Of a stretch of 34,517 nt of DNA, positions 1,346-33,685 are shown piece after piece (the first letter of the stretch is position 1; every line of letters begins with the position of its first letter). The position numbers and the translations under genes were made by a program. The notes under the pieces were generated by a model, which saw only the letters and a program-made list of their open reading frames with translations, did not search any database and had not been told where the DNA came from. The stretch lies in the IMG/VR virus record IMGVR_UViG_3300028840_000485, positions 1 through 34,517 of that record. One strand, written 5' to 3'. Source of the DNA: a virus.

Positions 1346-1609
1346 ATGAAAGCATTGCAAAACATTTTGAAAGCATCACAGATGATGCGAACAGACCTTG
1401 ACATCTTCAAGCAGGATTGCATCACATCAATTCATGTTCACTACTACACACCACAACAACCAAGAAGTTTTGTCAAAGGGTATGAAAGTGCAAGAGCAAC
1501 AATTGAATTTCAGAAAGGTGACATGAAAGGAGAAAAACAAATCACAGGTGAAAACATTCCTGAAGTTTTTGAACAGATCAAAGAATTCATTGAAGGATTG
1601 GAATTATGA
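1346..1609 (+). CDS. Hypothetical protein (87 aa)
   Basis: The reading frame is open further upstream, but the ATG at 1346 is the likely start. It lies 1 base after the previous stop and 10 bases after AAGGAG (1330-1335), while the upstream extension would overlap the preceding gene by more than 150 bases. The protein is soluble-looking and unrecognised. It overlaps the APS kinase gene by 4 bases (ATGA), so the two should be translationally coupled. Confidence 0.7.
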   Translation: MKALQNILKASQMMRTDLDIFKQDCITSIHVHYYTPQQPRSFVKGYESARATIEFQKGDMKGEKQITGENIPEVFEQIKEFIEGLEL

Positions 1610-2136
1610 AGGGAATCACATATTGGATGACAGGTCTTTCAGGTGCAGGAAAGACAACCATTGCAGAACTTGCAGTGAATCAAATGCAGAAGGAAAAGAT
1701 TCCTGTTGTTTGGCTTGATGGTGACATGATGCGAAAAGGCTTGTGTCATGATTTAGGATTCAGCAATGATGACAGGACAGAAAACATCAGAAGGATTGCA
1801 CATGTTGCAAAGCAAATCAATGACAATGGAATTGATGTCATTGTCAGCATGATCACACCCCGATATTCACAAAGGCAACTTGCAAACATCATCCTGTTGA
1901 AATCTTTCAGGGAAGTTTATATCAGCACACCTTTGACTGTCTGTGAAGATCGTGACCCAAAAGGATTGTATAAGAAAGCAAGGAAAGGTGAAATTGAAAA
2001 CTTCACAGGGATTGGATCAATCTATGAAAACCCACAAAACCCTTCACTGCAACTGACACATTTCATGACAGCACATGAATCAGCAAGAAGACTTTTCAAA
2101 TACATAAAACAAGAAGGTGCAGAAAATGGAATTTGA
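1606..2136 (+). CDS. cysC: Adenylylsulfate (APS) kinase
   Basis: This enzyme phosphorylates APS with ATP to give PAPS, the universal sulfate donor for sulfotransferases and an intermediate of sulfate assimilation. At 176 aa it matches a single-domain bacterial CysC. Visible family motifs are the Walker A loop GLSGAGKTT (10-18), LDGD (37-40), DDRTENIRRIAHVAK (55-69, the APS-binding region), and DPKGLYKKARKGEI (117-130) followed by NFTGI. The usual SPYR segment is altered to TPRY near residue 84. No ATP sulfurylase is seen, so APS would come from the host. The gene sits among unknown small genes, overlapping the upstream one as ATGA, and far from the two sulfotransferase-like genes at 20401 and 33056 that could use PAPS. 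Family assignment is strong; its role in the phage is inference. Confidence 0.93.
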   Translation: MKGITYWMTGLSGAGKTTIAELAVNQMQKEKIPVVWLDGDMMRKGLCHDLGFSNDDRTENIRRIAHVAKQINDNGIDVIVSMITPRYSQRQLANIILLKSFREVYISTPLTVCEDRDPKGLYKKARKGEIENFTGIGSIYENPQNPSLQLTHFMTAHESARRLFKYIKQEGAENGI

Positions 2137-2338
2137 AATTGATGAAACAGTTTTGATCACACTGAAACAATACACAATTGCCAATGGTGCAAATCCAATT
2201 GAAGTTGAAGGTGTGATTGAAAGAATAGAAAACAAACCATATCACAAGGTTTTCCATGTCAGATATTTTGACAGACAAATAAACGAAGAAACAGTTGGCA
2301 GATTTTATTCTGTCAGAAAAAAGGAGAAAACACAATGA
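2126..2338 (+). CDS. Hypothetical small beta-rich protein (70 aa)
   Basis: The frame is open from a GTG at 2117, but the ATG at 2126 has AAGAAGG (2111-2117) at 8 bases and is preferred; it overlaps the end of cysC by 11 bases. The pattern of alternating hydrophobic residues (VLITL, GVIERI, VFHVRYFD) suggests a small SH3-like barrel, as in many phage small proteins, but this is a guess from composition. It overlaps the next gene by 4 bases. Confidence 0.65.
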   Translation: MEFEIDETVLITLKQYTIANGANPIEVEGVIERIENKPYHKVFHVRYFDRQINEETVGRFYSVRKKEKTQ

Positions 2339-2715
2339 ACCTGATTCCACCATTGACACATGAAGTAAAACTGCAAACAGGCAAAATGTCACCTGTTCAC
2401 ACTAATCATCAAGGTTGCGAGTCAATCAGATGTGAAGGAACAGAAAAGCACAAAGGTTGCGGTGAATGGAAGTATTGGACAAAGTTTCATCCATCCATGC
2501 TGAAGACAGAAAAGCCAAGATGCAAAGAATGCCTGAAGAAAGCAGATGATGAAAGAACAAGAAGAAGAATCAAAGAAAGATCAGATCACAAAACAATCAA
2601 TGATTTGAAAACCATGATTGAAAACATTGAAAATCAGATTGCCAGCACTGACAGAAGGAAGATTCACCTTCAAGGACAATTGGCAATTCTTCAGGAACTT
2701 CTTGAAAAACAATAA
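2335..2715 (+). CDS. Putative zinc-finger protein with C-terminal coiled coil (126 aa)
   Basis: The N-terminal half contains five cysteines (28, 33, 42, 63, 66) with a Cys-Lys-Glu-Cys pair at 63-66 and aromatic residues between. This layout resembles small zinc-binding treble-clef or HNH-associated domains found in phage proteins. The second half is a highly charged, predicted coiled coil with heptad-like Leu and Ile (about residues 90-126). No HNH catalytic histidines are evident, so a nuclease call is not supported. A DNA-binding or adaptor role is plausible. It overlaps the upstream gene by 4 bases. Confidence 0.7.
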   Translation: MNLIPPLTHEVKLQTGKMSPVHTNHQGCESIRCEGTEKHKGCGEWKYWTKFHPSMLKTEKPRCKECLKKADDERTRRRIKERSDHKTINDLKTMIENIENQIASTDRRKIHLQGQLAILQELLEKQ

Positions 2716-2732
2716 AACAGGAGATCACAAAA

Positions 2733-3083: not shown

Positions 3084-3086
3084 AAA

Positions 3087-3347: not shown

Positions 3348-3359
3348 GGAGAAAGCAAA

Positions 3360-12518: not shown

Positions 12519-12859
12519 AAGACCATTGCACAAAATTCCCTGATCACCTTTTTGGAATTGACATTTCAGAATGCTGTGAATATCACGACATATGCTATGC
12601 ACTTGGTGGTGGCGAACAGGAAAGGTTTCTGTCTGACATTGTTCTGAAAAGGTGTGTGTTCAATAAGTTCATGAAAAAGAAAGTGAACTTTGCAGGGGAT
12701 CATTGGTCTGCTTGGTTCCTTTGGTGGTATGTGTTCATGACCTTGTTTGTTTACAGCACAAAAGCAGGAAGGTGGATTGCAGGAAAGATTGTTTCAAACC
12801 TTATGTTTGCAGGTGTCAGACTGTTTGGAAAGAAATATTTTAACTACCATTCACAATAG
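12515..12859 (+). CDS. Phospholipase A2-like small membrane protein
   Basis: The first 48 residues carry the hallmark of secreted PLA2: CCEYHDICYALGG (20-32) fits the catalytic-His signature C-C-x-x-H-D-x-C, with His24-Asp25 as the expected dyad centre. It is preceded by FPDHLFGIDISE, like the PD-x-x-x-G-x-D segment of bacterial/fungal-type (group XIV) PLA2, and followed by LSDIVLKRCV with a candidate second Asp (41) and a pairing Cys (47). Known enzymes of this fold hydrolyse the sn-2 ester of phospholipids using calcium. Residues 65-82 form one membrane segment and a second hydrophobic, amphipathic stretch lies at 86-104. There is no signal peptide. The domain is shorter than usual, so activity is uncertain. 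The gene sits between structural genes, overlapping the upstream one as ATGA. Confidence 0.72.
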   Translation: MKDHCTKFPDHLFGIDISECCEYHDICYALGGGEQERFLSDIVLKRCVFNKFMKKKVNFAGDHWSAWFLWWYVFMTLFVYSTKAGRWIAGKIVSNLMFAGVRLFGKKYFNYHSQ

Positions 12860-12885
12860 ATTTTATCTATAACTTTCAAATAAAA
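12856..12885. promoter_or_regulatory. 15-bp dyad ATAGATTTTATCTAT with flanking TTGAAA on the minus strand
   Basis: Positions 12856-12870 are the exact reverse complement of the dyad at 4231-4245, and the minus strand shows TTGAAA three bases before it (plus-strand TTTCAA at 12874-12879), nearly copying the 4221-4246 arrangement. It lies just after the phospholipase-like gene in a 112-base gap. A shared operator or promoter element is the likely explanation. If it is a promoter it would point leftward, against the genes, so an operator is more likely. Confidence 0.5.
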
Positions 12886-12958
12886 ATTTTGCACAAACCC
12901 TTGCAACGATTGCCGTTTTCATTACCGTAGCGAATAAATACTTATAAAAAAAATTGGT

Positions 12959-15721: not shown

Positions 15722-16786
15722 ATGACAGACGATGTAATTGTTGGAAATCAGGTCATTGGTGATTTTGCCAATGCACTACATGCAAACGGTTTTTCTGCTG
15801 GACGCTTGCGTCCGTGGTATGATGTAAACAAACGCAAATGTTTCATCAATGTCAATGGAAAAGCTGTTGAATATTCAAACCTCGCAATGAATGCAACACT
15901 GCGAAAAGATGAATGGCAGGAAATTGATTCTGCTGTTCTTGAAGTTGCACAAGAACGTCTTGTTGGTGTTCGTGACCTGCTTCAGGCTGGTCTGCTGAAA
16001 ACCCTTTCACAGGGAATTGGTGCAACTGTTTTCCAATGGGAAACTGTTTCTGATTTTGATGAAGCAGGTGTTTCAATGGATGCAGTGACTGACCATGTTG
16101 GCGACCGTCCAAAATTCAAACTTGAATCCATGCCTGTGCCTGTGATTCATAAAGAGTTTGAATTCAACAGCCGTCAACTTGATGCAAGTCGCAATCGTGG
16201 TGAAACACTTGATGTGACATCAGTGCGTTCTGCAACTCGTCAGGTGACTGAGAAGCAGGAAGACATGTTGTTCAATGGTGCAGACAGCTTCACTTTTGAT
16301 GGTGGTTCACTTTACGGTTATACCACTTTCCCACAGCGTAACTCTGTTACTTCTGCTGATGGCAAAAAGTGGGATGACCCTGCAAAAACAGGTGAAGAAA
16401 TTCTTGCTGATGTCCTTGCACTTATTACTGCAAATGACAATGCAAATCACTTCATGGATTCTAAACTGTATATTCCAAGAGCATATGATCGTGTCCTTGA
16501 CAATGATTTCAAAGCTGATTCTGACAAAACAATCCGTCAGCGTCTTCTTGAAATTCGTGGCATCATGGGCATTGAACCAGCAGACAGACTGACTGCTGAT
16601 CAGGTTGTTCTTGTTGAAATGAATCGTGAAGTTGTTCAGCTTGTTCAGGGAATGCCTTTGACAACTGTTCAGTGGTCTGAAAACTTTGGTTTCCGTGAGA
16701 AATTCAAAGTGATGATCATTCAGGTTCCAAACCTGCGTGCTGATCAGAATGGTCAGACAGGTATTGCACACATGGATTTGTCATAA
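15722..16786 (+). CDS. Major capsid protein (HK97 fold, encapsulin-like group)
   Basis: A 354-aa protein after protease and decoration genes and before a strong terminator, as expected for the main capsid subunit. It resembles the encapsulin-like/DUF2184-type phage capsid proteins, with an N-terminal arm, a LEVAQERLVGVRDLLQAGL helix, the IHKEFEFNSRQLDASRNRG segment, EKQEDMLFNGAD and a C-terminal YIPRAYDRVLDNDF to VVQLVQGMPLTTVQW core. More than 20 Arg codons are CGT/CGC with only about two AGA, indicating selection for rapid translation. AAGGAGTTCC precedes the ATG. Confidence 0.85.
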   Translation: MTDDVIVGNQVIGDFANALHANGFSAGRLRPWYDVNKRKCFINVNGKAVEYSNLAMNATLRKDEWQEIDSAVLEVAQERLVGVRDLLQAGLLKTLSQGIGATVFQWETVSDFDEAGVSMDAVTDHVGDRPKFKLESMPVPVIHKEFEFNSRQLDASRNRGETLDVTSVRSATRQVTEKQEDMLFNGADSFTFDGGSLYGYTTFPQRNSVTSADGKKWDDPAKTGEEILADVLALITANDNANHFMDSKLYIPRAYDRVLDNDFKADSDKTIRQRLLEIRGIMGIEPADRLTADQVVLVEMNREVVQLVQGMPLTTVQWSENFGFREKFKVMIIQVPNLRADQNGQTGIAHMDLS

Positions 16787-16888: not shown

Positions 16889-17338
16889 ATGAAGCGTCAA
16901 TATAAAATTCTGCATGGAACACATTCTGAAGATGGAAAATATTTCATTGCAGGAACATCAAACAACATCATTGAAAGTGATGTAAATTTGGCACTAAAAT
17001 ACAAGAACAAGTTTGTTGTCCATGTGCCAAGATCAAATTCAGATGAAGACCCTGATATTGAATTTCTTGAACCCGTTGACAAGGGCAATGGAATGTTTGA
17101 TGTCATGGACACAAGAACAGGTCAGAAAATCAATAACGGTTACCTGACACAGGAACAGGCTTTTGAATGGTGTGGACTGAATGCACCAAGTGAAGCAAGA
17201 AAGAAACCTGAAAAAATTTCTGAAATTGATTCTGATGATGAAGAAACAGATGCAGAAGCAGATGCAGATGCAGAAACTGAAACAGAATCAGAAGGACAAG
17301 ATGATGATGACAGCAACACAGACCCACTTATTTCATGA
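16889..17338 (+). CDS. Hypothetical protein with acidic C-terminal tail (149 aa)
   Basis: The first 110 residues look globular and beta-rich (YKILHGTHSEDGKYFIAG). The last 35 are almost purely Asp/Glu/Ala/Thr (DADAETETESEGQDDDD). It follows the capsid terminator and would sit where small head-completion or capsid-associated proteins often are, but no family is recognised. The ATG at 16889 is 8 bases after AAGG; an in-frame GTG three bases earlier is less likely. Its end overlaps the next gene by about 35 bases. Confidence 0.7.
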   Translation: MKRQYKILHGTHSEDGKYFIAGTSNNIIESDVNLALKYKNKFVVHVPRSNSDEDPDIEFLEPVDKGNGMFDVMDTRTGQKINNGYLTQEQAFEWCGLNAPSEARKKPEKISEIDSDDEETDAEADADAETETESEGQDDDDSNTDPLIS

Positions 17339-18050
17339 AGCACAGGAGACAGTGAAAGGTCTTTGGTCTGTTCCTAAAGCATGGAAAGATGAAAGCTGTT
17401 TCATCATTGGTGGTGGATATTCTGCAAAGAAACTTGACCTGTCACTTTTGAAACCCTTCAATGTCATTGGTTGCAATGATGCATATATCTATGGCGAAGA
17501 AATTGTTGACATCTGCTATTTTGGCGATCTTGGTTGGTACGATATTCATTGGACTGATGAAGTCAGCTACGATGACATTGGAACATTCAAAGGATTGAAG
17601 CATTTCAAAAATCTGATTGTCACAAACTGCCATGACAAGTTTCTTGAAAAAGATCAGGAAACACCTGTCAATCCAAAAGTCAAAGTTCTGAAACGAATGG
17701 GAAAGGGAATCAACACCATTCCATCATGTGTTGCATGGAATGGAAACACAGGATCATCTGCAATCAGCCTTGCCTGTCATTTAGGTGTCAAAAGAATCTA
17801 TCTTCTTGGTTTTGATATGTGCCTGACACAGGAAGGAAGCAAGCAGGTTGCAAATTGGCATCAGAATTTGAAGAATCCACCAAACAAAGATGTGTACGTC
17901 AAATGGCTTGAATACTTCAAGCAGATCAAAGAAACTGCATCCATGATTGGACTTGAAATTCTGAATTGCAGTAAAGTTTCAAGAATCAAAGAATTCAAAT
18001 TTTGTGAATATGAAAAGGCAATTGAAGCCGAAAGGAAAAACCTGAAATGA
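17304..18050 (+). CDS. DUF115/MptE-like (Maf-type) putative sugar-transfer protein
   Basis: The protein shows two paired Rossmann-like motifs of this family: SCFIIGGGYSAKKLDLSLL near the N-terminus with VIGCNDAYIYGE after it, and GNTGSSAISLACHLGVKRIY then LLGFDMCL in the second half. DUF115 relatives include Maf proteins that glycosylate flagellin with nonulosonic acids, and MptE-like pterin kinases; phage copies are common and uncharacterised. Starts at 17301, 17304 and 17307 are all possible; 17304 lies 7 bases after AAGGA. The frame is open to 17181 but that extension is low-complexity Gln/Lys antisense to nothing. It overlaps the next gene by ATGA, forming a unit with methyl-, glycosyl- and sulfotransferases. 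Confidence 0.72.
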   Translation: MMTATQTHLFHEAQETVKGLWSVPKAWKDESCFIIGGGYSAKKLDLSLLKPFNVIGCNDAYIYGEEIVDICYFGDLGWYDIHWTDEVSYDDIGTFKGLKHFKNLIVTNCHDKFLEKDQETPVNPKVKVLKRMGKGINTIPSCVAWNGNTGSSAISLACHLGVKRIYLLGFDMCLTQEGSKQVANWHQNLKNPPNKDVYVKWLEYFKQIKETASMIGLEILNCSKVSRIKEFKFCEYEKAIEAERKNLK

Positions 18051-20404
18051 AACAACTGATCAACATGTGCATTTGCGGTGGCTCAAAAGTCAGACCTGCA
18101 ACCATGAAAGGAATTGATGTGTTGCAGTGCATTTCATGTGGTGTCATCAGACAATCTGTTCACATGACAGAAGCAGAACTCGATGAATGGTATGAAAAAC
18201 AATATCATGATGGCATTTTTTCACATGACTATGATCATGACATAAAAATTGCCAATTTAAGACTGAAAGAATACGGTCTGAAGAAAAACACCACCATCCT
18301 TGACATTGGCTGTGGAAATGGTGCATTTGTCGATGCAAGCCGAAAGAAAGGGATTCAGGCATACGGTTGTGAAGTTGGTGATGGTGCAAGTCAAAGCAAA
18401 TTCACTTATCAGGGGAAAGTTGAAGACATCCATTTCCCGACAGACCATTTTGACACAGTTGTGATCCATGATGTCCTTGAACACCTTGTCAATCCTTTGC
18501 AGTTCTGCATTGAAGTCAGAAGAATATTGAAACAGGGTGGAACATTCATCATTGACTTTCCTGATTTCTTTGTTCCTGAAGGCGATCATCATTGGAAAGA
18601 AATTGAACACCTGTGGATGCTGAATGAAGAACAGGTTGTCAATATCCTTGTTGGACTTGGTTTCAATTTGAAGGAAATCAAAAAACCCATTCCTTCAAAA
18701 CTAGTTTTCTATGCAGAAGCACCAACAGAACAAAGACAATCAATCATCATTCCGCCGGGCATTGGCGACACATGGTGGTCGTTGTTAAAGCTGAAAAGTT
18801 TCTGTGAATCAAATCAAATTGGAATTCCTGATGTTTACATCATGTCAGACAATGGAAAGAAAGACAGGTCAATTGACTTTGTGAAACGAGCACCATTCCT
18901 GAATGCAAAAGGATATATGAAATATCCAAACAAAGCACAGGATGAAGTTTGGCGTGAAGCATACATGCTTGATGGAAGAACTGTTTTCACAAGAAAAGAT
19001 TTGCCTGTTGATGCAGACTATTTCCTTGCTTACAATGGTGTTTTAAGGGCAGGGAAAAACATTGATGAAGTTGACACCTTGTATCAATCAGATTGGCTTT
19101 ACGATCAATTTATAAGCCTTGAAGAAAGATGGTACGGTGAAAACTGTGTCAAGGAATGGGGTGAATACCTGATTGCATATTTTGTTGATCATGGCATGTA
19201 TGGAAAGCATTGGATCAAAGAATTCAGCAAAGCACACATCAAGAAAACACTTGAACTGTTGCACAAGCAGACAGGGAAAAAGATTGTCCTTGTTGGTTCT
19301 GAATGGGATGACAATGCATTCACAAAAGACCTTGCAAAAGGGTTTGACTTTGTGATCAACATGATTGGCAAAACAGAACTTGAAGAATTCATTGGAATGA
19401 TCCGATATTCATCAGGGATGATTGGTTTTCCATCAGGTGCAACTTTCATGGGTGTGAAGTTCAAAAAGCCTGTCATGTGCATTTGGAACAAATACTTCAC
19501 AACGAAATTTTGGTGGAATGCCTGCCCGAAAGAAAGCTGGAACAATTGGTATGGCATCATTGATTCAAGACATGCAAAGCCTGACACAGTTGTGAATGGT
19601 TTCATGAAGTTGATTGATGAAAACATTGAAGACACAAAGGAAATTCCTGTGAAAAACAGCAAAAAACCCCAAAAAACAGCCAAAAAAGCCGAAAAAACTG
19701 CATCCAAAACAGGTGAAAAGAAAACTAAAAGGGATCAGAAAGAGCCTTTCTTTGTGTCAAAAGGTGCAAAATTGGTTGCATGTGTGCTGAAATCAGGTGG
19801 TGATTTTGACAGAACCTACGTTTCAAGGCTTGAAAAGAACATCAAGAAGCACACAAACTATCCGATCAAACTTGTCTGCCTGTCAGACTTGGAAAACACA
19901 GGTGCAGATGAAACAATCAAACTGAAACACAATTGGCAAAGTTGGTGGTCAAAGATTGAACTGTTCAGACCTGATGTTTTCAATGAAGAACCTGTTGTGT
20001 ATTTTGATCTCGACACTTTGGTGCTGACAAACATTGATGGATTGATTGGTTCAAAACATTCATTCACAATGCTTGAAGCATTCAACAAAAAAAGAAATCC
20101 ATTTGCATCAGGTGTCATGGCATGGTCAGGAAACTATTCAGAAATTTATACTGAATTCAAAAAGAATTTCAGACAGGTCATTGAAAACAGAACAACCAAT
20201 GATCAGAAATTCATCCACAAAGTTTTGACAGAAGAATACGGCATCATTCCTGAAAGGGTGCAGAAGTTTGTGAATGTTGCAAGTTTCAAAAGAGAATGCA
20301 ATCATCCCACAGGCGCACCAAAGGGAACAAACATTGTCTGCTTTCATGGCAAACCAAGACCGATTGAAGTCACCCTTCCGTGGGTTCAGGAGGCATGGGC
20401 ATGA
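18047..20404 (+). CDS. Three-domain methyltransferase / GT9-like / DxD glycosyltransferase fusion
   Basis: At 785 aa this is the second-largest protein here. Residues 1-225: a Cys-pair N-terminus (CIC at 8-10, CISC at 28-31) and a class I SAM methyltransferase with motif I ILDIGCGNGAF (84-94) and VVIHDVLEHLVNP (138-150). Residues about 231-525: a glycosyltransferase-9-like region, beginning IIIPPGIGDTWWSLLKLKSF and ending with VLVGSEWDD, NMIGKTELEEFIGMIRY and GFPSGATFMGVKFKKP, as in ADP-heptose LPS heptosyltransferases. A Lys-rich linker spans about 534-565. Residues about 575-785: a GT-A-type domain with the metal-binding motif VVYFDLDTLVL near 650. Together they could build and methylate a glycan. 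It overlaps both neighbours by ATGA. No frameshift is visible, so this is a true fusion. Confidence 0.82.
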   Translation: MKQLINMCICGGSKVRPATMKGIDVLQCISCGVIRQSVHMTEAELDEWYEKQYHDGIFSHDYDHDIKIANLRLKEYGLKKNTTILDIGCGNGAFVDASRKKGIQAYGCEVGDGASQSKFTYQGKVEDIHFPTDHFDTVVIHDVLEHLVNPLQFCIEVRRILKQGGTFIIDFPDFFVPEGDHHWKEIEHLWMLNEEQVVNILVGLGFNLKEIKKPIPSKLVFYAEAPTEQRQSIIIPPGIGDTWWSLLKLKSFCESNQIGIPDVYIMSDNGKKDRSIDFVKRAPFLNAKGYMKYPNKAQDEVWREAYMLDGRTVFTRKDLPVDADYFLAYNGVLRAGKNIDEVDTLYQSDWLYDQFISLEERWYGENCVKEWGEYLIAYFVDHGMYGKHWIKEFSKAHIKKTLELLHKQTGKKIVLVGSEWDDNAFTKDLAKGFDFVINMIGKTELEEFIGMIRYSSGMIGFPSGATFMGVKFKKPVMCIWNKYFTTKFWWNACPKESWNNWYGIIDSRHAKPDTVVNGFMKLIDENIEDTKEIPVKNSKKPQKTAKKAEKTASKTGEKKTKRDQKEPFFVSKGAKLVACVLKSGGDFDRTYVSRLEKNIKKHTNYPIKLVCLSDLENTGADETIKLKHNWQSWWSKIELFRPDVFNEEPVVYFDLDTLVLTNIDGLIGSKHSFTMLEAFNKKRNPFASGVMAWSGNYSEIYTEFKKNFRQVIENRTTNDQKFIHKVLTEEYGIIPERVQKFVNVASFKRECNHPTGAPKGTNIVCFHGKPRPIEVTLPWVQEAWA

Positions 20405-21072
20405 AGTCTGAAGATGGAATTTTGATCACAGGAATTGCAAGAAGTGGAACAAGTGCAACAGCAGGAAGCATTGACATCTGTGGTGCATATGGTGGAAAAA
20501 CTGCTGGTGGTACAAGGTACAATCAGAAAGGCTTTTTTGAAAACACTGAAATCAGAAATGCATTGATCAAACCATTTCTTCTTGCAAACAATTGTGATCC
20601 ATTAGGGCAGAACCCATTGCCTGACATTGAAAAACTTGATGACTTTCCTGAACTTCAGGAGAAATTTTTTCAAGTCATGCAACGTCATGGATACAAACAG
20701 GGGAAATGGTATTACAAGGGCGCAAAGATGTGTTTGATTTGGACTGTCATTCACAATGCATTCCCGAATGCAAAGTGGGTGATTGTCAGAAGGAATGATG
20801 AAGACATCATCAATTCATGTTTGAAAACAGGCTTCATGCGAAAGAACAAAGGGCGTGAAGGTTGGCAATGGTGGATTGATGAACACAAGAAAAGGTTTCA
20901 GGAAATGCACACAGCAGGATTGCAGATCAAAGAAATTTATCCTGCAAAAATGGCTGAAGGTGATTTCACAGAAATGCAGGAATGCATTGAATGGTTAGGT
21001 TTGGAATGGAAAGAAAAAGAAGTCAGGAAGTTTATTGATCCACAATTATACAGCAGGACAAAAGTAAAATGA
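20401..21072 (+). CDS. P-loop sulfotransferase
   Basis: Sulfotransferases move sulfate from PAPS to a hydroxyl or amine of a sugar, lipid or protein. This 223-aa protein has the 5'-phosphosulfate loop GIARSGTSAT (11-20) and the 3'-phosphate-binding segment KWVIVRRNDEDIINS (125-139), in the correct order and spacing. The Walker-like loop lacks the GKT of kinases. The start at 20401 lies 7 bases after AGGAGG (20388-20393) and forms ATGA with the stop of the glycosyltransferase fusion. An in-frame ATG at 20395 is too close to the Shine-Dalgarno. PAPS could come from the CysC at 1606. The acceptor is unknown; a glycan made by the two upstream genes is the natural guess. Confidence 0.8.
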   Translation: MKSEDGILITGIARSGTSATAGSIDICGAYGGKTAGGTRYNQKGFFENTEIRNALIKPFLLANNCDPLGQNPLPDIEKLDDFPELQEKFFQVMQRHGYKQGKWYYKGAKMCLIWTVIHNAFPNAKWVIVRRNDEDIINSCLKTGFMRKNKGREGWQWWIDEHKKRFQEMHTAGLQIKEIYPAKMAEGDFTEMQECIEWLGLEWKEKEVRKFIDPQLYSRTKVK

Positions 21073-21293
21073 AACTGATTGTCAAAAAAGAAAAAAACGG
21101 TCAATGTCAGTTGGCACTTGAAGGACAAGATGATTTGAAGATTACAGGCTTCACAATCAAGGCAGGTGTGGATGAAATGATGACAGCAACGATTGATGTT
21201 TTGATCCTGCCTGAAGATGAACTTTTGATTGATGCAGATGATCCACACTTGACAATCAATAAACACTTAATTGGAGAAACAAAAAATGCTTGA
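21069..21293 (+). CDS. Hypothetical protein (74 aa)
   Basis: A small beta-rich protein (KLIVKKEKNGQCQLALEG, then VLILPEDELLID) with no recognised family, overlapping the sulfotransferase stop as ATGA and the next gene by 8 bases. It is the last member of the overlapping run before the connector genes, so it may belong to either unit. Confidence 0.65.
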   Translation: MKLIVKKEKNGQCQLALEGQDDLKITGFTIKAGVDEMMTATIDVLILPEDELLIDADDPHLTINKHLIGETKNA

Positions 21294-21696
21294 TTCAAGT
21301 TGTCCAATTACAGGTGATGAAGTTGCAGAAGTTCTTGGAATCACAATTGATTCAGGAAGCACAGAACTAGACTTTGCAATCAATTGTGCCTGCAAACTTT
21401 ATGATTCATGTGTCAAAGGCACAGGTGATTCAACGCTTGAAAGTTGCGTATTGCTTTATTTGTCAGCACACTTTGCAAGCCTGAGCGACAAATATAAAAA
21501 GGTGCTTGCACAATCTGAAAAACTTGGTGATGCACAGATCACTTTTGCAATCAATGCATCAGGTGGTGCAGGTGGTCTTTCTTCAACAGTCTATGGTCAG
21601 ACAGCTTTGGACATGGACAAGACAGGAAGACTGCGATCAAAAACATGTGGCATTGGTATTGAATCAATGGGAGCATACAACAATGGCAATTGCTGA
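21286..21696 (+). CDS. Head-tail connector protein (DUF4054-like)
   Basis: A 136-aa protein placed where the first head-completion (adaptor) protein normally lies. It has a helical N-terminal segment (DEVAEVLGITIDSGSTELDF), a LLYLSAHFASLSDKYKKVL helix, and the Gly/Ser-rich loop and YGQTALDMDK stretch common in DUF4054-like connectors. The ATG at 21286 lies 7 bases after GGAGAA (21273-21278); an in-frame TTG at 21271 is rejected. It overlaps the next gene by 14 bases. Confidence 0.72.
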   Translation: MLDSSCPITGDEVAEVLGITIDSGSTELDFAINCACKLYDSCVKGTGDSTLESCVLLYLSAHFASLSDKYKKVLAQSEKLGDAQITFAINASGGAGGLSSTVYGQTALDMDKTGRLRSKTCGIGIESMGAYNNGNC

Positions 21697-22048
21697 ATTT
21701 GTCAATCAGAATCTGTTGAACGATGCCGTATATTGGTCAATCGGTGCAGGTGAAGACGATGGTGAAGGGAACATCACATATCCTGCACCCATTGAAATCA
21801 AATGCAGATGGCAAGATGTGAATGAAATGGTTGATGACAATGAAGGGAATCAATTTTTAAGTCAAGCAATAATCTATTCAGACAGGGAACTTGAAGATAA
21901 CGGTTGGCTGTTTGAAGGAAAGCTGACTGACATTGTTGGAAGCACTGACAATCCGAAAGAAGTTGCAGGTGCTTACATGATAAAAAAGAAGGGTAAAAGT
22001 TCAAGACTGAAGATTGCTGATGAAAAAATCTTCAAGGTGTGGATATGA
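21683..22048 (+). CDS. Putative head-tail connector / stopper protein (121 aa)
   Basis: The open frame extends upstream, but the ATG at 21683 after GGGAG is the realistic start because the extension lies antiphase over the preceding gene. The protein has a beta-rich core (EIKCRWQDVNEMVDDNEGN, then SQAIIYSD) typical of small connector or stopper proteins in this gene order. Family not firmly recognised. It overlaps the next gene by ATGA. Confidence 0.65.
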   Translation: MAIAEFVNQNLLNDAVYWSIGAGEDDGEGNITYPAPIEIKCRWQDVNEMVDDNEGNQFLSQAIIYSDRELEDNGWLFEGKLTDIVGSTDNPKEVAGAYMIKKKGKSSRLKIADEKIFKVWI

Positions 22049-22554
22049 GCATTCAAATGACAGTTCAAGGTGTTGATGTGACAGAGCAAAATATGCTGAA
22101 AGTTGCAAGCGATGTTTTGATTGCATCAGAAATTGGTGTATTCAAAACAGGCTTGCTTGTTCAAAGAACTGCACAGTTGAAAGCACCTGTTGATTTGGGC
22201 AACTTGAAAGCATCTGCATACACACATGGAAAAAGGCAGGCATTTGACGATCCATCATGGGTGAAAGAGAAAAAAGAAAAGGATGAAAAAACAGGAAGAA
22301 TTGTTGTCAGGACAGCAGACCCTGTTGAACTTTCAGTTGATCATGCAAATGCAAAGAATGAAGCAACAGGAAGAATCAGGGTTCAAGAACAGCAATTGAA
22401 TCAACTTGTTGTCGTTGGGTTTTCTGCAAACTATGCAATTTATGTTCATGAAAATCACAGAACAAAATCAGATTTCTTGCGTTCTGCAATAACAGAAAGC
22501 AGTGACACTTTGCTGATGAATGTTGCAAGAGAAATCAAAAGGGTGTTGCCATGA
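22045..22554 (+). CDS. HK97 gp10-like tail-joining protein
   Basis: A 169-aa protein with the family layout: N-terminal beta strand, a helix with TGLLVQRTAQLKAPVDLGNLKAS (continuing to the ‘TGxLKxS’ signature), and C-terminal NYAIYVHENHRTKSDFLRSA, which matches the ‘YAxYVExG.....PFLRPA’ pattern of HK97 gp10. Such proteins complete the neck and allow head-to-tail joining. The ATG at 22045 (overlap ATGA with upstream) is preferred over a GTG at 22039; AAGG lies 7 bases before it. Confidence 0.78.
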   Translation: MSIQMTVQGVDVTEQNMLKVASDVLIASEIGVFKTGLLVQRTAQLKAPVDLGNLKASAYTHGKRQAFDDPSWVKEKKEKDEKTGRIVVRTADPVELSVDHANAKNEATGRIRVQEQQLNQLVVVGFSANYAIYVHENHRTKSDFLRSAITESSDTLLMNVAREIKRVLP

Positions 22555-27563: not shown

Positions 27564-29308
27564 TGGCAGATAAAGGTGTTGTATTTGGTGAAAAAACTGC
27601 TGACAGAATTCTGAATGCAACTCAAAAGGTTGAATCAGCAACAAGGGGAATTGGTTCAAGCACATCGGTCAGTTCAGAAAATGTCACCTATGTCGAAATC
27701 ACAGAAGCACTTGAAAATGGTTTTTATTTAGGGGTGCAAAGGGTTTTTGATTTTGAAGCAGTACAAGACACAGAAAACCCTGAACCATTTTTCATTGAAC
27801 CAACATCAGGAAACATCATTCAATTCAATGGCGGTCCAAATGGTGACAACACAAACTTTGGTGTCAGTGAAGCAAGCAATCTTTTTGAAATCAATGGAAT
27901 GACAGGTGTTCCAGCAGGAACAATTGTTCAGGTCTTTCCTGCGTATGGAATTGCAGGTGGTACACAATGGGTTTTTGATGTCAAGTCAGCATTGCTGTTG
28001 CCTTTTCAATTGTCATACGATTCTGATATTTCAGAAGCAACAGTTGGTGCATTCAGAAGTGAATCATGGTATCCGTTTGAAGATTCAATCAGACTTGGCG
28101 GACAGGAAGAACTGATTCAAACATCACCTGAATCAATCAGTGCAAGTGATGGTGATGTCATCTTTTATGAAATAACAATTTCAACTTTCATGGCAACACT
28201 GAACAAAGACACTGCACTGCCAGCAGACACAGCCGACACCCGACATGTTGAAGTTGGAAGGATCAAAGGCAATCAGGCACATCAAACACTGTACGGAATC
28301 ATCAGGCTTGATCTTGGTGAAGTCAGGGTTTCAATTGATGACTTGGAACTTGGTTTGCTATACGATAAAATTCAAGCACCTTCAGACACAGGTGATGTTG
28401 CAAATGGTGCAGACAATCTTGCACTTGTTGTCTATGTGGCAAATCCAGCAGGTGCAGAATTGGTTGCATTAGATTTTGACATTCAACTTTTGCCAAGTCA
28501 GACAATCAGCACATCAGACCACCTGATGCTTGCAAGTGGTCAAAATCATTACAAAGCAACACTTGAAGACATCTACGACAACATTGATGACATCTTTGTG
28601 ACTGCATCTTCATCTGACACAACTGCCGGACCATTGTTTGACGCATCAGTTGGAACAGAAAAACTTCGGGCAGGTGCAGGTGGAAAAGATGGTTACGATC
28701 CTGTATCAACACCTGATAACGATGCACTTTATGTCTATGTCACAAATGAAGCAGGTGACGAAGAAATGTGGATCGACATGGACATTGCAAGACTGGTGAA
28801 CCTTGCACCAAATTCAACTGATGTCATCATGTTTGCACCTGATTCAACTGCACCAACACATCAGAAAAGAACCTTTGGTGAATTGGCAGGTGATGCAATT
28901 CAATTTCTGAACAATGCCTTTGCACTTGATGGAAAAAGATCAATCACAACAGACACAGATCAAGCACAGCTTGTCAATGATTTGGATGATGGAAGTCTTT
29001 CTGATGGATATTGCTATTCATACGATACAACTAGGGGATGGCACTTGATAGAAGACCTTCTGATCACAATGAATGGATATAACGCATCATTTGACCAGTT
29101 TATTGTTTCAGATTCAAGTGGTGGATCACCTGCCGAATGGCGAAATCTTTCTGTTCTTGCAGGTGAACTGCTGACCTATAGTGAAGCATTCAATTCACTT
29201 GATGTTGACCTGACAGGAATCACAGGGTACGATTCAGGGAAAACACAATTTCTTGGACACATTTCAGGAACACTGACTTGGATTGATTCAAGCACGACCT
29301 GCACATAA
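27563..29308 (+). CDS. Putative tail tip/fibre protein with internal repeat (581 aa)
   Basis: The ATG at 27563 (TGATG overlap; AAGGTGG 6 bases upstream) gives 581 aa; an in-frame start at 27521 is inside the previous gene. The N-terminus (KTADRILNATQKVESATRG) is helical. The rest is acidic and beta-rich. Two segments repeat: ALVVYVANPAGAELVALDFD near 284 and ALYVYVTNEAGDEEMWIDMD near 386, each followed by a D-x-x-x-x-A-x-x-x-x-x-x-x-x-T stretch. Repeated beta domains, position after the tape measure and length suggest a tail tip or receptor-binding fibre. No enzymatic motif seen. Confidence 0.7.
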   Translation: MADKGVVFGEKTADRILNATQKVESATRGIGSSTSVSSENVTYVEITEALENGFYLGVQRVFDFEAVQDTENPEPFFIEPTSGNIIQFNGGPNGDNTNFGVSEASNLFEINGMTGVPAGTIVQVFPAYGIAGGTQWVFDVKSALLLPFQLSYDSDISEATVGAFRSESWYPFEDSIRLGGQEELIQTSPESISASDGDVIFYEITISTFMATLNKDTALPADTADTRHVEVGRIKGNQAHQTLYGIIRLDLGEVRVSIDDLELGLLYDKIQAPSDTGDVANGADNLALVVYVANPAGAELVALDFDIQLLPSQTISTSDHLMLASGQNHYKATLEDIYDNIDDIFVTASSSDTTAGPLFDASVGTEKLRAGAGGKDGYDPVSTPDNDALYVYVTNEAGDEEMWIDMDIARLVNLAPNSTDVIMFAPDSTAPTHQKRTFGELAGDAIQFLNNAFALDGKRSITTDTDQAQLVNDLDDGSLSDGYCYSYDTTRGWHLIEDLLITMNGYNASFDQFIVSDSSGGSPAEWRNLSVLAGELLTYSEAFNSLDVDLTGITGYDSGKTQFLGHISGTLTWIDSSTTCT

Positions 29309-29321
29309 AGGGAATCATGTA

Positions 29322-29861
29322 ATGCCTGAAGTTCGATTGAATGCAAATGGTGAAGTCTTATTGAATGCAAGTGGTGAAGTTGCCATTGACACTGAATGCT
29401 GTTGCACAGTTGTCTATGAACTTTGTGATCCAACATCAATTGAATATCTTGAATGCAATGGTGATTCATCAGCAGTTCCAATTTATGTTGACCCTTCAGT
29501 TTTATCAGGGATTGATCCACCACCATCTGTGATTGAAATTTCAGGAACATGTTATGAATTTGTTCAGAAAAGCCTGACTGCCATTGATACATTTTCAATT
29601 GATTCAGAACCAAATGCATGTGATGATTCTGTCTGTGCAGGTGCAGTTCTTGATTGTGGTGATGCAGGTTGCACAAATCAGATCACACACAGTTCAATTG
29701 CGCCATTCTTTACAGAAGCTGAATGTTTGGCGGCACTACCACCGAGCCCTGATTGCACATCTGATTGCAGTGGATCATTTAGTTCCGCACCATGTGGTGC
29801 ATTCTGTGCAGATTTAGGCGGTCTATGGGCAATCACCTGTTGCTGTGAGGATTCACCATAA
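29322..29861 (+). CDS. Cys-rich repeat tail-associated protein 1 (179 aa)
   Basis: First of three consecutive proteins sharing a Cys-rich module. Here it runs VYELCDPTSIEYLEC, IYVDPSVLSGIDPPP, VIEISGTCYEFV, TAIDTFSIDSEP, then CDDSVC. The start MPEVRLNANGEVLLNASGEVA-like N-terminus contains two near-identical LNA(N/S)GEV units. The C-terminal 60 residues are another Cys-rich segment (ECLAALPPSPDC, CGAFCADLGG, CCC). With over 20 Cys, disulfides or metal binding are likely; lack of a signal peptide argues for assembly in the virion. AAGGGA precedes the ATG. Function unknown, likely tail tip or receptor contact. Confidence 0.7.
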   Translation: MPEVRLNANGEVLLNASGEVAIDTECCCTVVYELCDPTSIEYLECNGDSSAVPIYVDPSVLSGIDPPPSVIEISGTCYEFVQKSLTAIDTFSIDSEPNACDDSVCAGAVLDCGDAGCTNQITHSSIAPFFTEAECLAALPPSPDCTSDCSGSFSSAPCGAFCADLGGLWAITCCCEDSP

Positions 29862-30811
29862 TGTCTGATATAAGAGTAAATAAAACAAATTTAAGTGATC
29901 CAATTCCTGATGTGGTCAAAGCAGGTGGTGTGTGCTATAAGATAAAAGAAATCAACAGTGATGCACCCGACACAGTTCCAACTGATGAATACGAAGATTG
30001 CGACTGCTGTATTGCAACATCTGTTTGCTATCAATCCTGCGATGATTCATCAATTTTGATTTACATTGATCCTTCTGCATTAGATATGAGCAACATTCCT
30101 TTGGTTGTGGAAATTTCAGGAACATGTTATGAATTGCCTTTGTGCAGTCAAGAAGCACCTGACACATTCAGCATCAGCAGTACACCACCTGATTGTGATG
30201 ATTCAGTTTGTTCAGGATCAGGTTCTTGTATTTATGAATTATGTGATCCTGTGTCAGTACAATATCAGGAATGTGCAGGTGGCGGTGGTGCAACAATCTA
30301 TGTTGATCCTTCAGTTCTTTCAACACTTGATCCACCACCTGACATTGTGGAAATAAATGAAATCTGTTACGAGTACGTGCAGAAGTCTTTGACTGCCATT
30401 GACACATTCAGCATTTCAACAGATAGTGCTGTTGATTGTGCTGATGAACTTTGTGTTGTCTGTCCTGCAAATAAAACAGCTTCTTATCTTGCACAATCAG
30501 GGGGAACGTTAATATTTGGTTCATGTGGTGTTTGCGGAATACCTCTAACAAACCTTGCAAGGCAAAGTGATTTACAATGGCTTGGAACTGTTGGTTCACA
30601 GTTTGTTTATCTTGAAAGGGTTTCAAATGAATGGCAAGTCAGGTATCTGTGTAACGCTGGAACACCTGTCACAGTCATTTATAAATTGCCAGGCGGTGCA
30701 GGTATTGGTCAAGCCTGCCCACCAAACGGAAACTATCAACACACAAGTTTCCCATCAGCAGGCGTGGCTTGTGCAGGAACAGTAATACCTTCTTTTATGG
30801 TGATAAGTTAA
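29861..30811 (+). CDS. Cys-rich repeat tail-associated protein 2 (316 aa)
   Basis: Overlaps the previous stop by one base (TAATG). It contains a short N-terminal half-module (GGVCYKIKEI, APDTVPTDEYEDCDCC) and two full Cys modules: VCYQSCDDSSILIYIDPSAL then VVEISGTCYELPL, APDTFSISSTPPDCDDSVC; and IYELCDPVSVQYQECAGGGG then IYVDPSVLSTLDPPP, NEICYEYVQKSLTAIDTFSI. The C-terminal 95 residues (GIPLTNLARQSDLQWLG, FVYLERVSNEWQVRYLC) differ and may be the variable tip. It appears to be an expanded paralogue of its neighbours. Confidence 0.7.
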   Translation: MSDIRVNKTNLSDPIPDVVKAGGVCYKIKEINSDAPDTVPTDEYEDCDCCIATSVCYQSCDDSSILIYIDPSALDMSNIPLVVEISGTCYELPLCSQEAPDTFSISSTPPDCDDSVCSGSGSCIYELCDPVSVQYQECAGGGGATIYVDPSVLSTLDPPPDIVEINEICYEYVQKSLTAIDTFSISTDSAVDCADELCVVCPANKTASYLAQSGGTLIFGSCGVCGIPLTNLARQSDLQWLGTVGSQFVYLERVSNEWQVRYLCNAGTPVTVIYKLPGGAGIGQACPPNGNYQHTSFPSAGVACAGTVIPSFMVIS

Positions 30812-30812
30812 A

Positions 30813-31505
30813 ATGGCAAATATAAAAATAGCAAAAGTTGGTGCATGTAATAACGATGCAGTTTTATATAATGGGAATTGTTACAAGTTCCTTCAGGAAA
30901 GCCCCGATCCACCTGACACAACACCTGCAAGCATTCATGATGATTGCGAAGATTGCAAATGTGACAATGCAGTGAGCGTTGAATATTCAAGTTGCGAATG
31001 TGGCGATTCAATTTTTGTTGATCCTGCTGTGCTTTCAGGATTAACACCACCACCACCTGTGATTGAAATTTCAACAGTCTGTTATCAATATGTGGAATGT
31101 TCACAGACAGCAATTGATACATTTTCAATTGATTCAGAACCAGCAACATGTGATGATTCTGTCTGTGCAGATGTATTCACATGTCCTGTTGATTGCTCAA
31201 GTTGTTCGTGGCCATTAAGTATTTTCATATCAGGAATTACAGGAAGTGCTTCCTGCACAAGCCATAATACATTTTTTAATTTTAGCTCACAGCCTTCATC
31301 ATGCGTCAGGCGTTATCAAAATTTTCTTGGAACAGTTTTTGTCGATGTTCAATGTGTTGGAACAAAATGGCAGGTTGTCGATATTCTTGGATTAGGTTTG
31401 ATTTGGGAAGCAGACAATGTTTGTGGTTGTCCACCAACAGGCATTTTTTATAATTTAGTTTCAACAGGTTCATGTGGGGGAACTCCGACATGTCAGGTCT
31501 TTTAA
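30813..31505 (+). CDS. Cys-rich repeat tail-associated protein 3 (230 aa)
   Basis: Starts one base after the upstream stop. It has the half-module NGNCYKFLQESPDPPDTTP with DDCEDCKC, then one full module (VEYSSCECGDSIFVDPAVL, VIEISTVCYQYVECSQ, TAIDTFSIDSEPATCDDSVC). A different C-terminal domain contains WQVVDILGLGLIWEADNVCG, similar in style to the end of protein 2 (EWQVRYLCN). At DNA level its 31113-31170 segment is nearly identical to 29583-29640 of protein 1, so these genes duplicated or exchanged sequence recently. Confidence 0.7.
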   Translation: MANIKIAKVGACNNDAVLYNGNCYKFLQESPDPPDTTPASIHDDCEDCKCDNAVSVEYSSCECGDSIFVDPAVLSGLTPPPPVIEISTVCYQYVECSQTAIDTFSIDSEPATCDDSVCADVFTCPVDCSSCSWPLSIFISGITGSASCTSHNTFFNFSSQPSSCVRRYQNFLGTVFVDVQCVGTKWQVVDILGLGLIWEADNVCGCPPTGIFYNLVSTGSCGGTPTCQVF

Positions 31506-32028: not shown

Positions 32029-32363
32029 TGAATTATGAATACAGAGCATTGTGTGTGAAAGTCTACGATGGTGACACCATCACCTGTGACATTGATCTTG
32101 GATTTTATATCACACTGAGAAAGCAAACAATCAGGTTGCTAAGTATTGACACCCCTGAAATTCGTGGTGATGAAAGACCTGAAGGATTGATTGCAAAAGA
32201 TTGGCTTGCTGAACAAATCCTGAACAAGGAAGTTGTTCTGCACACACTGAAAGACAAACGAGGGAAATACGGACGCTGGCTTGCAGATGTTTACCTGCCT
32301 GAATCTGACATTTCCCTGAACAAAACAATGCTTGATTTGGGCATTGCCAAAAAATACCAATAG
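32025..32363 (+). CDS. SNase-like (thermonuclease) endonuclease
   Basis: A 112-aa staphylococcal-nuclease-fold protein. Family motifs are complete: VKVYDGDTI (11-19, calcium ligand Asp), TIRLLSIDTPEI (35-46, with the catalytic Arg37, Asp42 and Glu45), and KYGRWLADVYL (81-91, with catalytic Arg84). Such enzymes cut DNA or RNA using calcium. No signal peptide is present, so it acts inside the cell or in the virion. It could degrade host DNA, act in packaging or be a tail-associated nuclease. Starts at 32025 and 32028 are both reasonable after AAGGAA (32015-32020); the first forms an ATGA overlap with the upstream gene. Confidence 0.85.
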   Translation: MMNYEYRALCVKVYDGDTITCDIDLGFYITLRKQTIRLLSIDTPEIRGDERPEGLIAKDWLAEQILNKEVVLHTLKDKRGKYGRWLADVYLPESDISLNKTMLDLGIAKKYQ

Positions 32364-32375
32364 GAGAAAAAAGAA

Positions 32376-33059
32376 ATGAAACAAGCAATTTATCTGATCA
32401 TGTGTTGTCTGCTGTTTGCAGGATGCTTGACAATAAATGATGATGAAAGCAAGAAGGATGAAGTCACAACCAAAGAAGGGATTGTTCAACTTGATCCAAA
32501 TAAAACCTACACAGCAGATGAAGTGAAAGCAATCAAGCAAAAACAGGCACTTGCTTTTGATCAGGAAATCTTGAACAGGAAACTTGAATCAGACAAGGAC
32601 ACAAGAACAGTTCTGCGAAGGGTGCAATATCTGTGCGGTCTTATTCTACTAATATCAGCGATTGCTTTTTGGAAAGCACCTTCGTCAAATGCTAAACGAT
32701 GGGCAATAGGTGGTGCAGTTGGATCAGTCTTTGCTTTGATGGTATGTGCAACCTGTTCTTTCTTTCTTGATTGGATCAGGTGGATCATGCTCGGCTTGCT
32801 TTTAAGTGCAATTATCACTGCTGTTGGTTTTGCTGTTCTTTGGATCAGGAAAAACTATGCATTCAAGACTGTCACCAAGTCAGCACAGAAACACATTGAC
32901 GCTGATCCTGAAGGATGGAATGATCTTGTTGAAAGTGGCAAGATTGATCACGATGAAGATGTGAAGAAACAGGTGAAGGATGCAAAGAAACAAATTGAAG
33001 CAGACAACACCAAAGAAAAGAAAGCAAAACTGAAGGAAAGCATCAAAGAATTGAAATGA
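32376..33059 (+). CDS. Putative lipoprotein with three membrane segments (227 aa)
   Basis: The N-terminus IYLIMCCLLFAGC is a typical lipobox signal (cleavage before Cys17). A charged region (21-80) is followed by hydrophobic segments at about 84-99, 109-131 and 134-157, then a long charged helix with heptad features (170-227). This combination of lipid anchor, membrane bundle and cytoplasmic or periplasmic coiled coil is unusual and fits neither a simple holin nor a two-gene spanin. Superinfection exclusion, lysis control or membrane anchoring are possible. It follows AGGAGAAAAAAGAA and overlaps the next gene as ATGA. Confidence 0.7.
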   Translation: MKQAIYLIMCCLLFAGCLTINDDESKKDEVTTKEGIVQLDPNKTYTADEVKAIKQKQALAFDQEILNRKLESDKDTRTVLRRVQYLCGLILLISAIAFWKAPSSNAKRWAIGGAVGSVFALMVCATCSFFLDWIRWIMLGLLLSAIITAVGFAVLWIRKNYAFKTVTKSAQKHIDADPEGWNDLVESGKIDHDEDVKKQVKDAKKQIEADNTKEKKAKLKESIKELK

Positions 33060-33685
33060 TTCACCTTTGCACAGTTCAGCACACAGGAACTTGGTTTCTG
33101 ATCAGGTTCCTGTATAAACACCCTGAAGTTCATGACTACATCATTGAATGGACATTGCGACATCAATTAAGCAAATGCACACTTGATGAAACAAAAAGGA
33201 ACATCTTTCATTGTCATGCACCTGCAAAAGACAGTGCATATTTTCACATCTTGGAATCCCTGATGAAAACAAACAAGGTTGTGATGACAGTTCGTGATCC
33301 AATTTTAGCACTGACAACTCGGCACACAAGGCATCCTGAAATGGATCACACTTTCATCTTGAAAGGGTTTCTTCAAATGCATGAATGGGCAGACAATGAA
33401 AATGTTTTCTTTTTCAACATTCATGATCAAAGGGAAGAACAGTTGATTGCACTTCTTGAGTTTTTAGGATTGGAAATTGACTGTGAACTGATCAGTGAAT
33501 ACGAAAACAATTGGCAAGCAGAAAACACAACACAGGGAAGGAACATCTTGAAAACCCTTTATCTTGAACATGGGATTGATGGCATCAGGCACAAGCTGTC
33601 AGATGAAATTGAATTCCTTGAAAAATATCAAGATAAAATTCAGGGTTTCATGGAAAGGTTTGTCAGATTGTCTTGGTTTTCTTGA
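33056..33685 (+). CDS. Second sulfotransferase-like protein (209 aa)
   Basis: The sequence begins with a phosphosulfate-binding-like loop, VQHTGTWFLIRFL (7-19), comparable to the TxGTxxL loop of PAPS-dependent sulfotransferases. Later it has KVVMTVRDPILALTTR (74-89), the usual VRDPxxxxxSxxxx 3'-phosphate-binding site, with Thr replacing Ser. The order and distance are right for the fold, but the protein is short and the rest is divergent, so acceptor and activity are uncertain. It overlaps the lipoprotein gene as ATGA. Together with cysC (1606) and the sulfotransferase at 20401 it forms a dispersed set of sulfate-transfer genes. Confidence 0.6.
   Translation: MIHLCTVQHTGTWFLIRFLYKHPEVHDYIIEWTLRHQLSKCTLDETKRNIFHCHAPAKDSAYFHILESLMKTNKVVMTVRDPILALTTRHTRHPEMDHTFILKGFLQMHEWADNENVFFFNIHDQREEQLIALLEFLGLEIDCELISEYENNWQAENTTQGRNILKTLYLEHGIDGIRHKLSDEIEFLEKYQDKIQGFMERFVRLSWFS

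Follow-up and report, generated by a model that had tools for sequence, protein, structure and literature searches.

A predicted phage-encoded sulfation system: an APS kinase, two sulfotransferase-type genes and a putative glycan island in the head operon

The phage genome analyzed here probably encodes a sulfation system that would act late in infection on a glycan made by the phage itself, this glycan probably being located on the virion. To our knowledge, no phage is known to produce either a sulfated glycan or a sulfated virion. The three genes on which an earlier note had based the proposal of phage sulfation were all confirmed as open reading frames in the window, that is, the whole stretch of 34,517 nucleotides that was analyzed:

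1606..2136, plus strand: cysC, predicted full-length APS kinase of 176 aa (P0001); PF01583, TIGR00455 and APS kinases in PDB
20401..21072, plus strand: predicted sulfotransferase 1 (P0002); PF13469/PF17784, fold match to TPST-PAP, 61-member family
33056..33685, plus strand: sulfotransferase-like 2 (P0003); sub-threshold match to PF00685, relatives located in other phages' sulfation islands

By sequence comparison, the window corresponds to bases 17099-51602 of an IMG/VR contig of 54,348 bp which carries a 123-bp terminal repeat and is apparently a complete phage genome. At the very end of the window, 13 bases (AGATCGGAAGAGC) derive from an Illumina adapter and do not belong to the phage. The DNA of the first 24 kb of the window has no match in phage isolate records, and neither P0002 nor P0003 has any match among 50,697 phage records. 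No RNA families were found in the phage sequence, a promoter scan gave signal no higher than in shuffles, and the sole match to PADLOC defence families was the methyltransferase domain of a fusion protein encoded in the island described below.

The two sulfotransferase families

P0002 scores 27.8 bits against PF13469 (cut-off 27) and 23.8 bits against PF17784 (cut-off 22.8), and the earlier description of this gene as a clear P-loop sulfotransferase overstated such single-sequence evidence; the class assignment itself stands, given that PF13469 is matched by 59 of the 61 members of the P0002 family (E<=1e-3) and given the predicted fold. When the model of P0002 (pLDDT 76, pTM 0.79) was compared to known structures with Foldseek, the first matches were PAP-bound tyrosylprotein sulfotransferases (E ~6e-6, probability 1.00, TM only 0.5-0.6), and all 15 best PDB matches were sulfotransferases; thus, the structure prediction that the earlier note had suggested as a check yields a PAPS-sulfotransferase fold for this protein. 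The putative 5'-PSB is GIARSGTS (residues 11-18) and the 3'-PB consists of R131...S139, with R14, S15, G16, T17, R131 and S139 invariant across the 61 members. By its Pfam assignment and predicted fold, P0002 is a PAPS-dependent sulfotransferase. The only cellular relative is a weak one, located on an Alphaproteobacteria MAG contig (5.3 kb, coverage 0.9) that may itself be viral.

The case for P0003 is weaker. Its match to PF00685 (E=0.002, 17.9 bits) is under the cut-off of 22, and none of the other proteins in this family of 11 matches that profile; the model obtained with AlphaFold from the single sequence has a pLDDT of 37, and profile-profile and PDB searches with the small family returned nothing significant. 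Nevertheless, the designation as sulfotransferase-like retains the support of all three sulfotransferase motifs (5'-PSB, catalytic His and 3'-PB), conserved in the relatives, nearly all of which are located in the MCP-sulfotransferase island of other phages. These motifs, which we take to be functional equivalents of the SULT motifs, are HTGTW (9-13), H54 within an 'HxHxP'-like motif, and RDP...T (80-88); GTWF, H54 and RDP are invariant in the family, and T10, P78 and T88 nearly so. Judging from the motifs and the relatives, P0003 is probably a second sulfotransferase.

The glycan island and the likely acceptor

The sulfotransferase 1 gene is the last gene of an island that is embedded in the head operon, with the following neighbors:

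15722..16786, plus strand: major capsid protein (MCP), left border of the island; PF19774/PF04454/PF09950, phrog_771, phrog_264
17301..18050, plus strand: DUF115/MptE-like, sialyltransferase-like glycosyltransferase; phrog_4603 (4.6e-29), PF01973 under the cut-off
18047..20404, plus strand: fusion of a SAM methyltransferase, a GT9-like domain and a C-terminal glycosyltransferase; PF08241 (7e-15)
21271..22554, plus strand: head-tail connector genes (21271-21696, ~21641-22048 and 22039-22554), right border of the island

The start at 17301 was preferred for the DUF115 gene over that of the listed ORF, which opens at 17181, because of the upstream 'gaaggacaag'. The annotation of phrog_4603 is 'alpha-2;3-sialyltransferase', and the DUF115 protein has no match in PDB. 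In the fusion protein, the GT9-like domain corresponds to a PF01075 match slightly under the cut-off (2e-4), and residues 577-784 match the glycosyltransferase family phrog_1962 (2.3e-35). The first connector gene belongs to phrog_302 (head and packaging) and the second to phrog_797 (function unknown).

The arrangement is conserved in related phages. All 35 loci that show both the MCP and the sulfotransferase gene keep the order MCP, DUF115, variable glycosyltransferase/methyltransferase island, sulfotransferase, followed by the connectors, and an HTC2 homologue is found beside the sulfotransferase gene in 76 of the 83 loci of relatives. Wherever dN/dS could be computed, it was well under 1, which indicates purifying selection. 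Because the island adjoins the major capsid gene and DUF115 is an invariant partner, a glycan on virion proteins appears to be the most likely product, its virion location being suggested by gene position; a glycan is favored over a lipid because the sulfotransferase gene is the closing member of an island of glycosyltransferase genes within the head operon. The position of the island thus narrows the original suggestion of a glycan, lipid or protein target to a glycan, probably on the virion.

The nearest solved relatives of P0002, however, sulfate protein tyrosine rather than sugar, which counts against a glycan acceptor, and the family profile of P0002 also matches TPST1/2. Accordingly, the acceptor could be the capsid protein or another structural protein itself, an unlikely alternative that is compatible with the smallest island (L113), which comprises the MCP, DUF115 and sulfotransferase genes alone. 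Against tyrosine sulfation, the TPST matches are remote (13-17% identity), the DUF115 glycosyltransferase-like gene is always present, and the islands contain up to ~9 additional genes, many of them glycan-related. Similarly unlikely is a role of the island in altering the host surface polysaccharide (receptor masking or superinfection exclusion), with sulfation as the last step. The variable islands of the relatives, which encode GT11 and other sugar transferases, do resemble O-antigen or capsule loci, and marine bacteria do have sulfated capsules (PMC11641403), but in the relatives the island lies between the MCP and connector genes, and this location inside the head operon implies late expression together with virion parts; furthermore, neither a flippase nor a membrane anchor was apparent among the islands that were read.

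The APS kinase and its link to sulfotransferases

P0001 matches PF01583 with an E-value of 4e-56 (189.6 bits, cut-off 21.1) and passes the cut-off of the NCBIfam apsK equivalog TIGR00455 (191.7 bits, cut-off 138.7); among solved structures, it is nearest to PAPSS1 from human and to CysC from mycobacteria (PDB APS kinases to 2.6e-40). The earlier claim of a full-motif CysC is borne out by the P-loop (10-17), DGDxxR (38-43), DDRTENIRR (55-63, including RxxN), the lid KGLYKKAR (119-126) and FTGI (133-136), the single departure being MITP (82-85) in place of the usual 'FISP'. On this sequence evidence, P0001 is predicted to be an APS kinase producing PAPS from APS and ATP. The cysC gene is located ~18 kb away from the sulfotransferase 1 gene, in an early-type region outside the island, which counts against a joint sulfation system.

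A profile search of the entire 54,348-bp contig detected no match to PF01507, the PAPS-reductase type, which takes in CysD as well; hence the absence of PAPS reductase noted earlier holds genome-wide, and the contig contains neither of these genes of the sulfate assimilation set. No ATP sulfurylase of the types outside PF01507 was seen upon reading of the ORFs. PF01507 is likewise absent from 41 sulfotransferase contigs.

CysC-type genes and sulfotransferase genes are kept together in related phages, a positive outcome of a check that the earlier note had suggested. A short, lid-less APS-kinase homologue touches the sulfotransferase gene in 21 loci including near-duplicates (~20 relatives), often overlapping it, and in four relatives (L367, L368, L369 and L371) ST2, CysC and ST all lie within ~5.5 kb, so that glycosyltransferases, sulfotransferase and putative PAPS synthesis, represented by the lid-less homologue, form one unit. 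Among 50 other viral contigs bearing a full-length cysC, 28 carry a sulfotransferase of some type, contrary to the prospect of viruses that keep cysC but never a sulfotransferase; the pair is at most 5 kb apart in 15 of these 28 (3.6 expected). PF13469 is represented in 25 of the 50 compared to 0 of 45 random contigs (Fisher 2e-9), the controls being shorter in sum (2.3 Mb vs 6.3 Mb) and not habitat-matched. Given that a sulfotransferase is found in 28 of the 50 contigs and a PF01507 gene in 9, viral cysC often appears to be a sulfation gene.

These observations bear on the published interpretation of viral cysC/cysH auxiliary genes as sulfate assimilation genes (PMC10914622, PMC9529941), under which CysC would contribute to cysteine supply and the sulfotransferases would be unrelated. 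The 9 contigs with PF01507 fit such a role, but for the present phage it is improbable, and we rejected it given the absence of PF01507 and the linkage to sulfotransferases; the preference for sulfation over assimilation in the earlier note is thereby upheld.

Because the lid is missing, the activity of the short homologues is uncertain. CysC-like kinases with other specificity exist, and Cj1415, a Campylobacter CysC homologue, reportedly acts on CDP-phosphoramidate. It is conceivable, if very improbable, that CysC and the short homologues phosphorylate such another nucleotide and that the glycan is decorated without sulfate; however, P0001 exceeds the apsK equivalog cut-off and scores under that of subfamily PRK05541, nearly all short forms retain DGDxxR, the aromatic residue and RxxN, and the neighboring gene encodes a PAPS-type sulfotransferase. 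Just as improbable is the sulfation of a hypermodified DNA base, which has been proposed computationally for phages together with base glycosylation (Iyer 2013, as cited in PMC10829341) and could be linked to the TET-associated glycosyltransferase (PF20691, 1.4e-33) encoded in this genome outside the window, but the sulfotransferase gene moves with the head operon and glycan island rather than with the TAGT region, and no TET/JBP oxygenase was seen in the subset of proteins tested.

Proposed pathway

Under the preferred scenario of glycan sulfation, CysC would phosphorylate host-made APS and thereby raise the level of PAPS, from which sulfotransferase 1, and probably P0003 as well, would transfer the sulfuryl group to a carbohydrate assembled late in infection by the phage's own glycosyltransferase/methyltransferase island. 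The absence of CysC from larger sulfotransferase-bearing relatives (51, 58 and 66.6 kb) indicates that cysC is optional. Many bacteria reduce APS directly, making little or no PAPS, and therefore their phages would need a cysC of their own; the restriction of cysC to some relatives may thus reflect hosts that lack a PAPS supply. More tentatively, with a chance that we put slightly below even, tailed phages of one widespread family decorate their own capsids with sulfated glycans that vary between strains, through a head-operon island capped by a dedicated viral sulfotransferase, with a phage APS kinase where host PAPS is too low. Sulfated capsids, if they exist, would differ in charge and adsorption and might provide protection or mimicry of the host surface.

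Comparison with known systems

In the sulfated-capsule cluster of Vibrio sp. KMM 8419, which includes cysC, cysND, sulfotransferases and glycosyltransferases, the combination of PAPS-synthesis and sulfotransferase genes has been termed a hallmark of the production of sulfated polysaccharides (PMC11641403). As in these marine bacterial clusters, APS kinase-type, sulfotransferase and glycosyltransferase genes form a single genetic unit in related phages, but the phage version is much smaller, resides in the head operon, employs a viral sulfotransferase family, and shows no cysND or exporter. Phage glycosyltransferases are thought to decorate capsid proteins in mycobacteriophage Che8 and related F1 phages as well (Freeman 2023, cited through PMC11256854), whereas the passages of PMC11256854 that we consulted mention no sulfotransferase or PAPS-making gene for them. 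The viral cysC/cysH auxiliary genes (PMC10914622, PMC9529941) include APS kinases of the same family, but the cysC described here accompanies sulfotransferases without a PAPS reductase; if this interpretation is correct, many viral cysC genes now tallied as sulfur assimilation genes are sulfation genes, which would affect sulfur-cycle models. Finally, PF13469 genes have been described in marine phages, namely OM43 phages and cyanophages, in a 2023 paper according to which it 'remains unclear' what phage sulfotransferases do (PMC10580990). Those genes were reported as isolated, whereas here the sulfotransferase belongs to a conserved island and has a predicted PAPS-making partner, which provides a testable genetic context for the question of its function.

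Gene identities and genome context

The open reading frames of the three predicted sulfation genes are intact:

1606-2136, P0001, APS kinase (CysC)
20401-21072, P0002, sulfotransferase
33056-33685, P0003, second sulfotransferase-like gene

On all tests applied, P0001 is a predicted APS kinase: it matches the Pfam APS kinase family (4e-56), exceeds the cut-off of the NCBI apsK equivalog and aligns over its full length with solved APS kinases, and the P-loop, DGDxxR, RxxN and KGLYKKAR motifs are all present, in agreement with the full motif set claimed in the earlier note. P0002, which that note called a clear P-loop sulfotransferase, exceeds the Pfam sulfotransferase cut-offs by only a narrow margin as a single sequence. 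An IMG/VR scan with a five-member alignment yielded 91 relatives, of which 80 were kept. Once relatives are included, the predicted assignment becomes firm: a PF13469 match is seen in 59 of 61 family members, RSGT, R131 and S139 are invariant, and the best 15 PDB matches of an AlphaFold model built from five sequences (pLDDT 76, pTM 0.79) are all sulfotransferases, including PAP-bound human TPST2, with modest TM-scores (0.5-0.6).

P0003 scores under the Pfam sulfotransferase cut-off. Searching IMG/VR with the P0003 family yielded 16 relatives, the contig of P0003 excluded. Each has GTWF close to the N-terminus, a histidine within an 'HxHxP'-like motif and RDP, followed by T in nearly all. We take these to be, respectively, the 5'-phosphosulfate loop, catalytic histidine and 3'-phosphate site of cytosolic sulfotransferases. 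The shared motifs, together with the location of nearly all relatives in the gene islands described below (capsid, DUF115, fusion glycosyltransferase or P0002 homologues on the same locus), support a second sulfotransferase-like gene despite the missed cut-off.

Base for base, the window matches 17099-51602 of IMGVR_UViG_3300017963_000320 save for its last 13 bases (34505-34517, AGATCGGAAGAGC), which are Illumina adapter; the longer contig carries the true sequence there. Because this 54,348-bp contig has a 123-bp terminal direct repeat, the phage genome is apparently complete at about 54.2 kb. It holds one APS kinase, one PF13469 gene and one sub-threshold PF00685 gene; a Pfam search of the whole contig found no gene of PF01507, the family that takes in PAPS reductase and CysD. 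Thus, the lack of a PAPS reductase noted for the window extends to the rest of the genome, where such a gene had been named as evidence against sulfation.

Several other genes were recorded in this genome. In the window, these are a minor head protein of the head-morphogenesis type whose C-terminal half carries collagen-like Gly-X-Y repeats (7834-10026), a small protein without a Pfam match that contains 'CCEYHDICY', a phospholipase-A2-like motif (12515-12859), and three adjacent, probably structural cysteine-rich paralogues with common repeats of the type 'CYEFVQKSLTAIDTFSI' (29283-31505). Outside it, on locus L019 of the same genome, an Amidoligase_2 gene adjoins a gamma-glutamyl cyclotransferase (GGACT) gene (12726-14220), and a TET-associated glycosyltransferase (8699-9547; PF20691, 1.4e-33) directly follows an unassigned 266-aa gene that is ParB-like by eye, without a Pfam match. 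Base hypermodification is a possibility in this phage; no TET/JBP oxygenase was found among the proteins tested.

A putative glycan island between capsid and connector genes

Upstream of P0002 lie a DUF115/MptE-like gene, matching a family of phage proteins labelled 'alpha-2;3-sialyltransferase' (4.6e-29), and a gene for a single fusion protein with methyltransferase, GT9-like and glycosyltransferase domains; the island is bordered by the major capsid gene to the left of these genes and by connector genes to the right of P0002. The slot is conserved in relatives, with a homologue of the head-tail connector HTC2 nearby in 76 of the 83 loci examined and a DUF115 gene between the capsid and sulfotransferase genes in all 35 loci showing both. 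The stretch from capsid to sulfotransferase gene ranges from 1.0 kb (L113, capsid-DUF115-sulfotransferase only) to 9.7 kb; the one island scanned in detail, that of contig G004, encodes GT11, RXYLT1/exostosin-like, sugar-binding GT, GT2, radical SAM and methyltransferase proteins. Given the constancy of DUF115 and sulfotransferase and the changing contents of the stretch, the island is a conserved core of these two genes that encloses variable sugar-gene cargo.

In 21 loci (about 16 without near-duplicates), a short APS-kinase homologue (about 120-165 aa) touches the sulfotransferase gene, usually with a 22-nt overlap or else at a distance of no more than about 80 nt; in L087 it is located just upstream, as it is in L086 (9267-9986), where it is fused to a cytidylyltransferase-like nucleotidyltransferase domain (PF01467). 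These proteins have lost the lid, but the P-loop, DGDxxR, aromatic and RxxN motifs are retained in nearly all of them; ten score 53-67 bits against PF01583 (cut-off 21). The dN/dS of about 0.07-0.22 in four pairs points to purifying selection. In four loci (L367, L368, L369 and L371), a short homologue, a P0002 homologue and a P0003 homologue all lie inside about 5.5-6.6 kb, so the three genes are indeed kept together in some relatives, a check that the earlier note had proposed.

Association of cysC with sulfotransferases in viral contigs

In the reverse direction, an alignment of full-length CysC proteins was used as the query and picked out 78 viral contigs, 50 of which were tested. PF13469 is present in 25 and PF00685 in 24 of these (E<=0.001; union 28/50), and PF01507 in nine. 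Among 45 random viral contigs >20 kb, none has PF13469 (Fisher P=2e-9, a guide only because the control contigs add up to less sequence, 2.3 Mb vs 6.3 Mb, and are not habitat-matched). The linkage result is independent of the control set: with related contigs counted as separate, cysC and a sulfotransferase gene are within 5 kb in 15 of the 28 carriers vs 3.6 expected under random placement, and 0 of 20,000 shuffles reached 15.

Proposed mechanism and comparison with known systems

CysC would convert host APS to PAPS, with which P0002, and probably also P0003, may sulfate a glycan built by the island enzymes late in infection; the virion is the most likely site of this glycan. Relatives of 51-66 kb lack cysC, and its optional presence is consistent with hosts that supply their own PAPS; in hosts that reduce APS directly, the phage CysC would putatively be needed.

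Sulfation has been proposed to take part in phage base modification, for which Iyer 2013 is cited. Pairing of PAPS synthesis with sulfotransferases is found in bacterial sulfated-capsule clusters (PMC11641403), and virion glycosylation is known in mycobacteriophages, according to work cited in PMC11256854. Phage cysC has been classed as assimilatory (PMC10914622, PMC9529941), and the function of phage sulfotransferases has been termed unclear (PMC10580990). The one paper in which a full-text search of the open-access literature found phage, cysC and sulfotransferase together deals, to judge by its title and abstract, with cyanobacterial photosynthesis. The combination seen here appears to be undescribed, although all of its parts have precedents.
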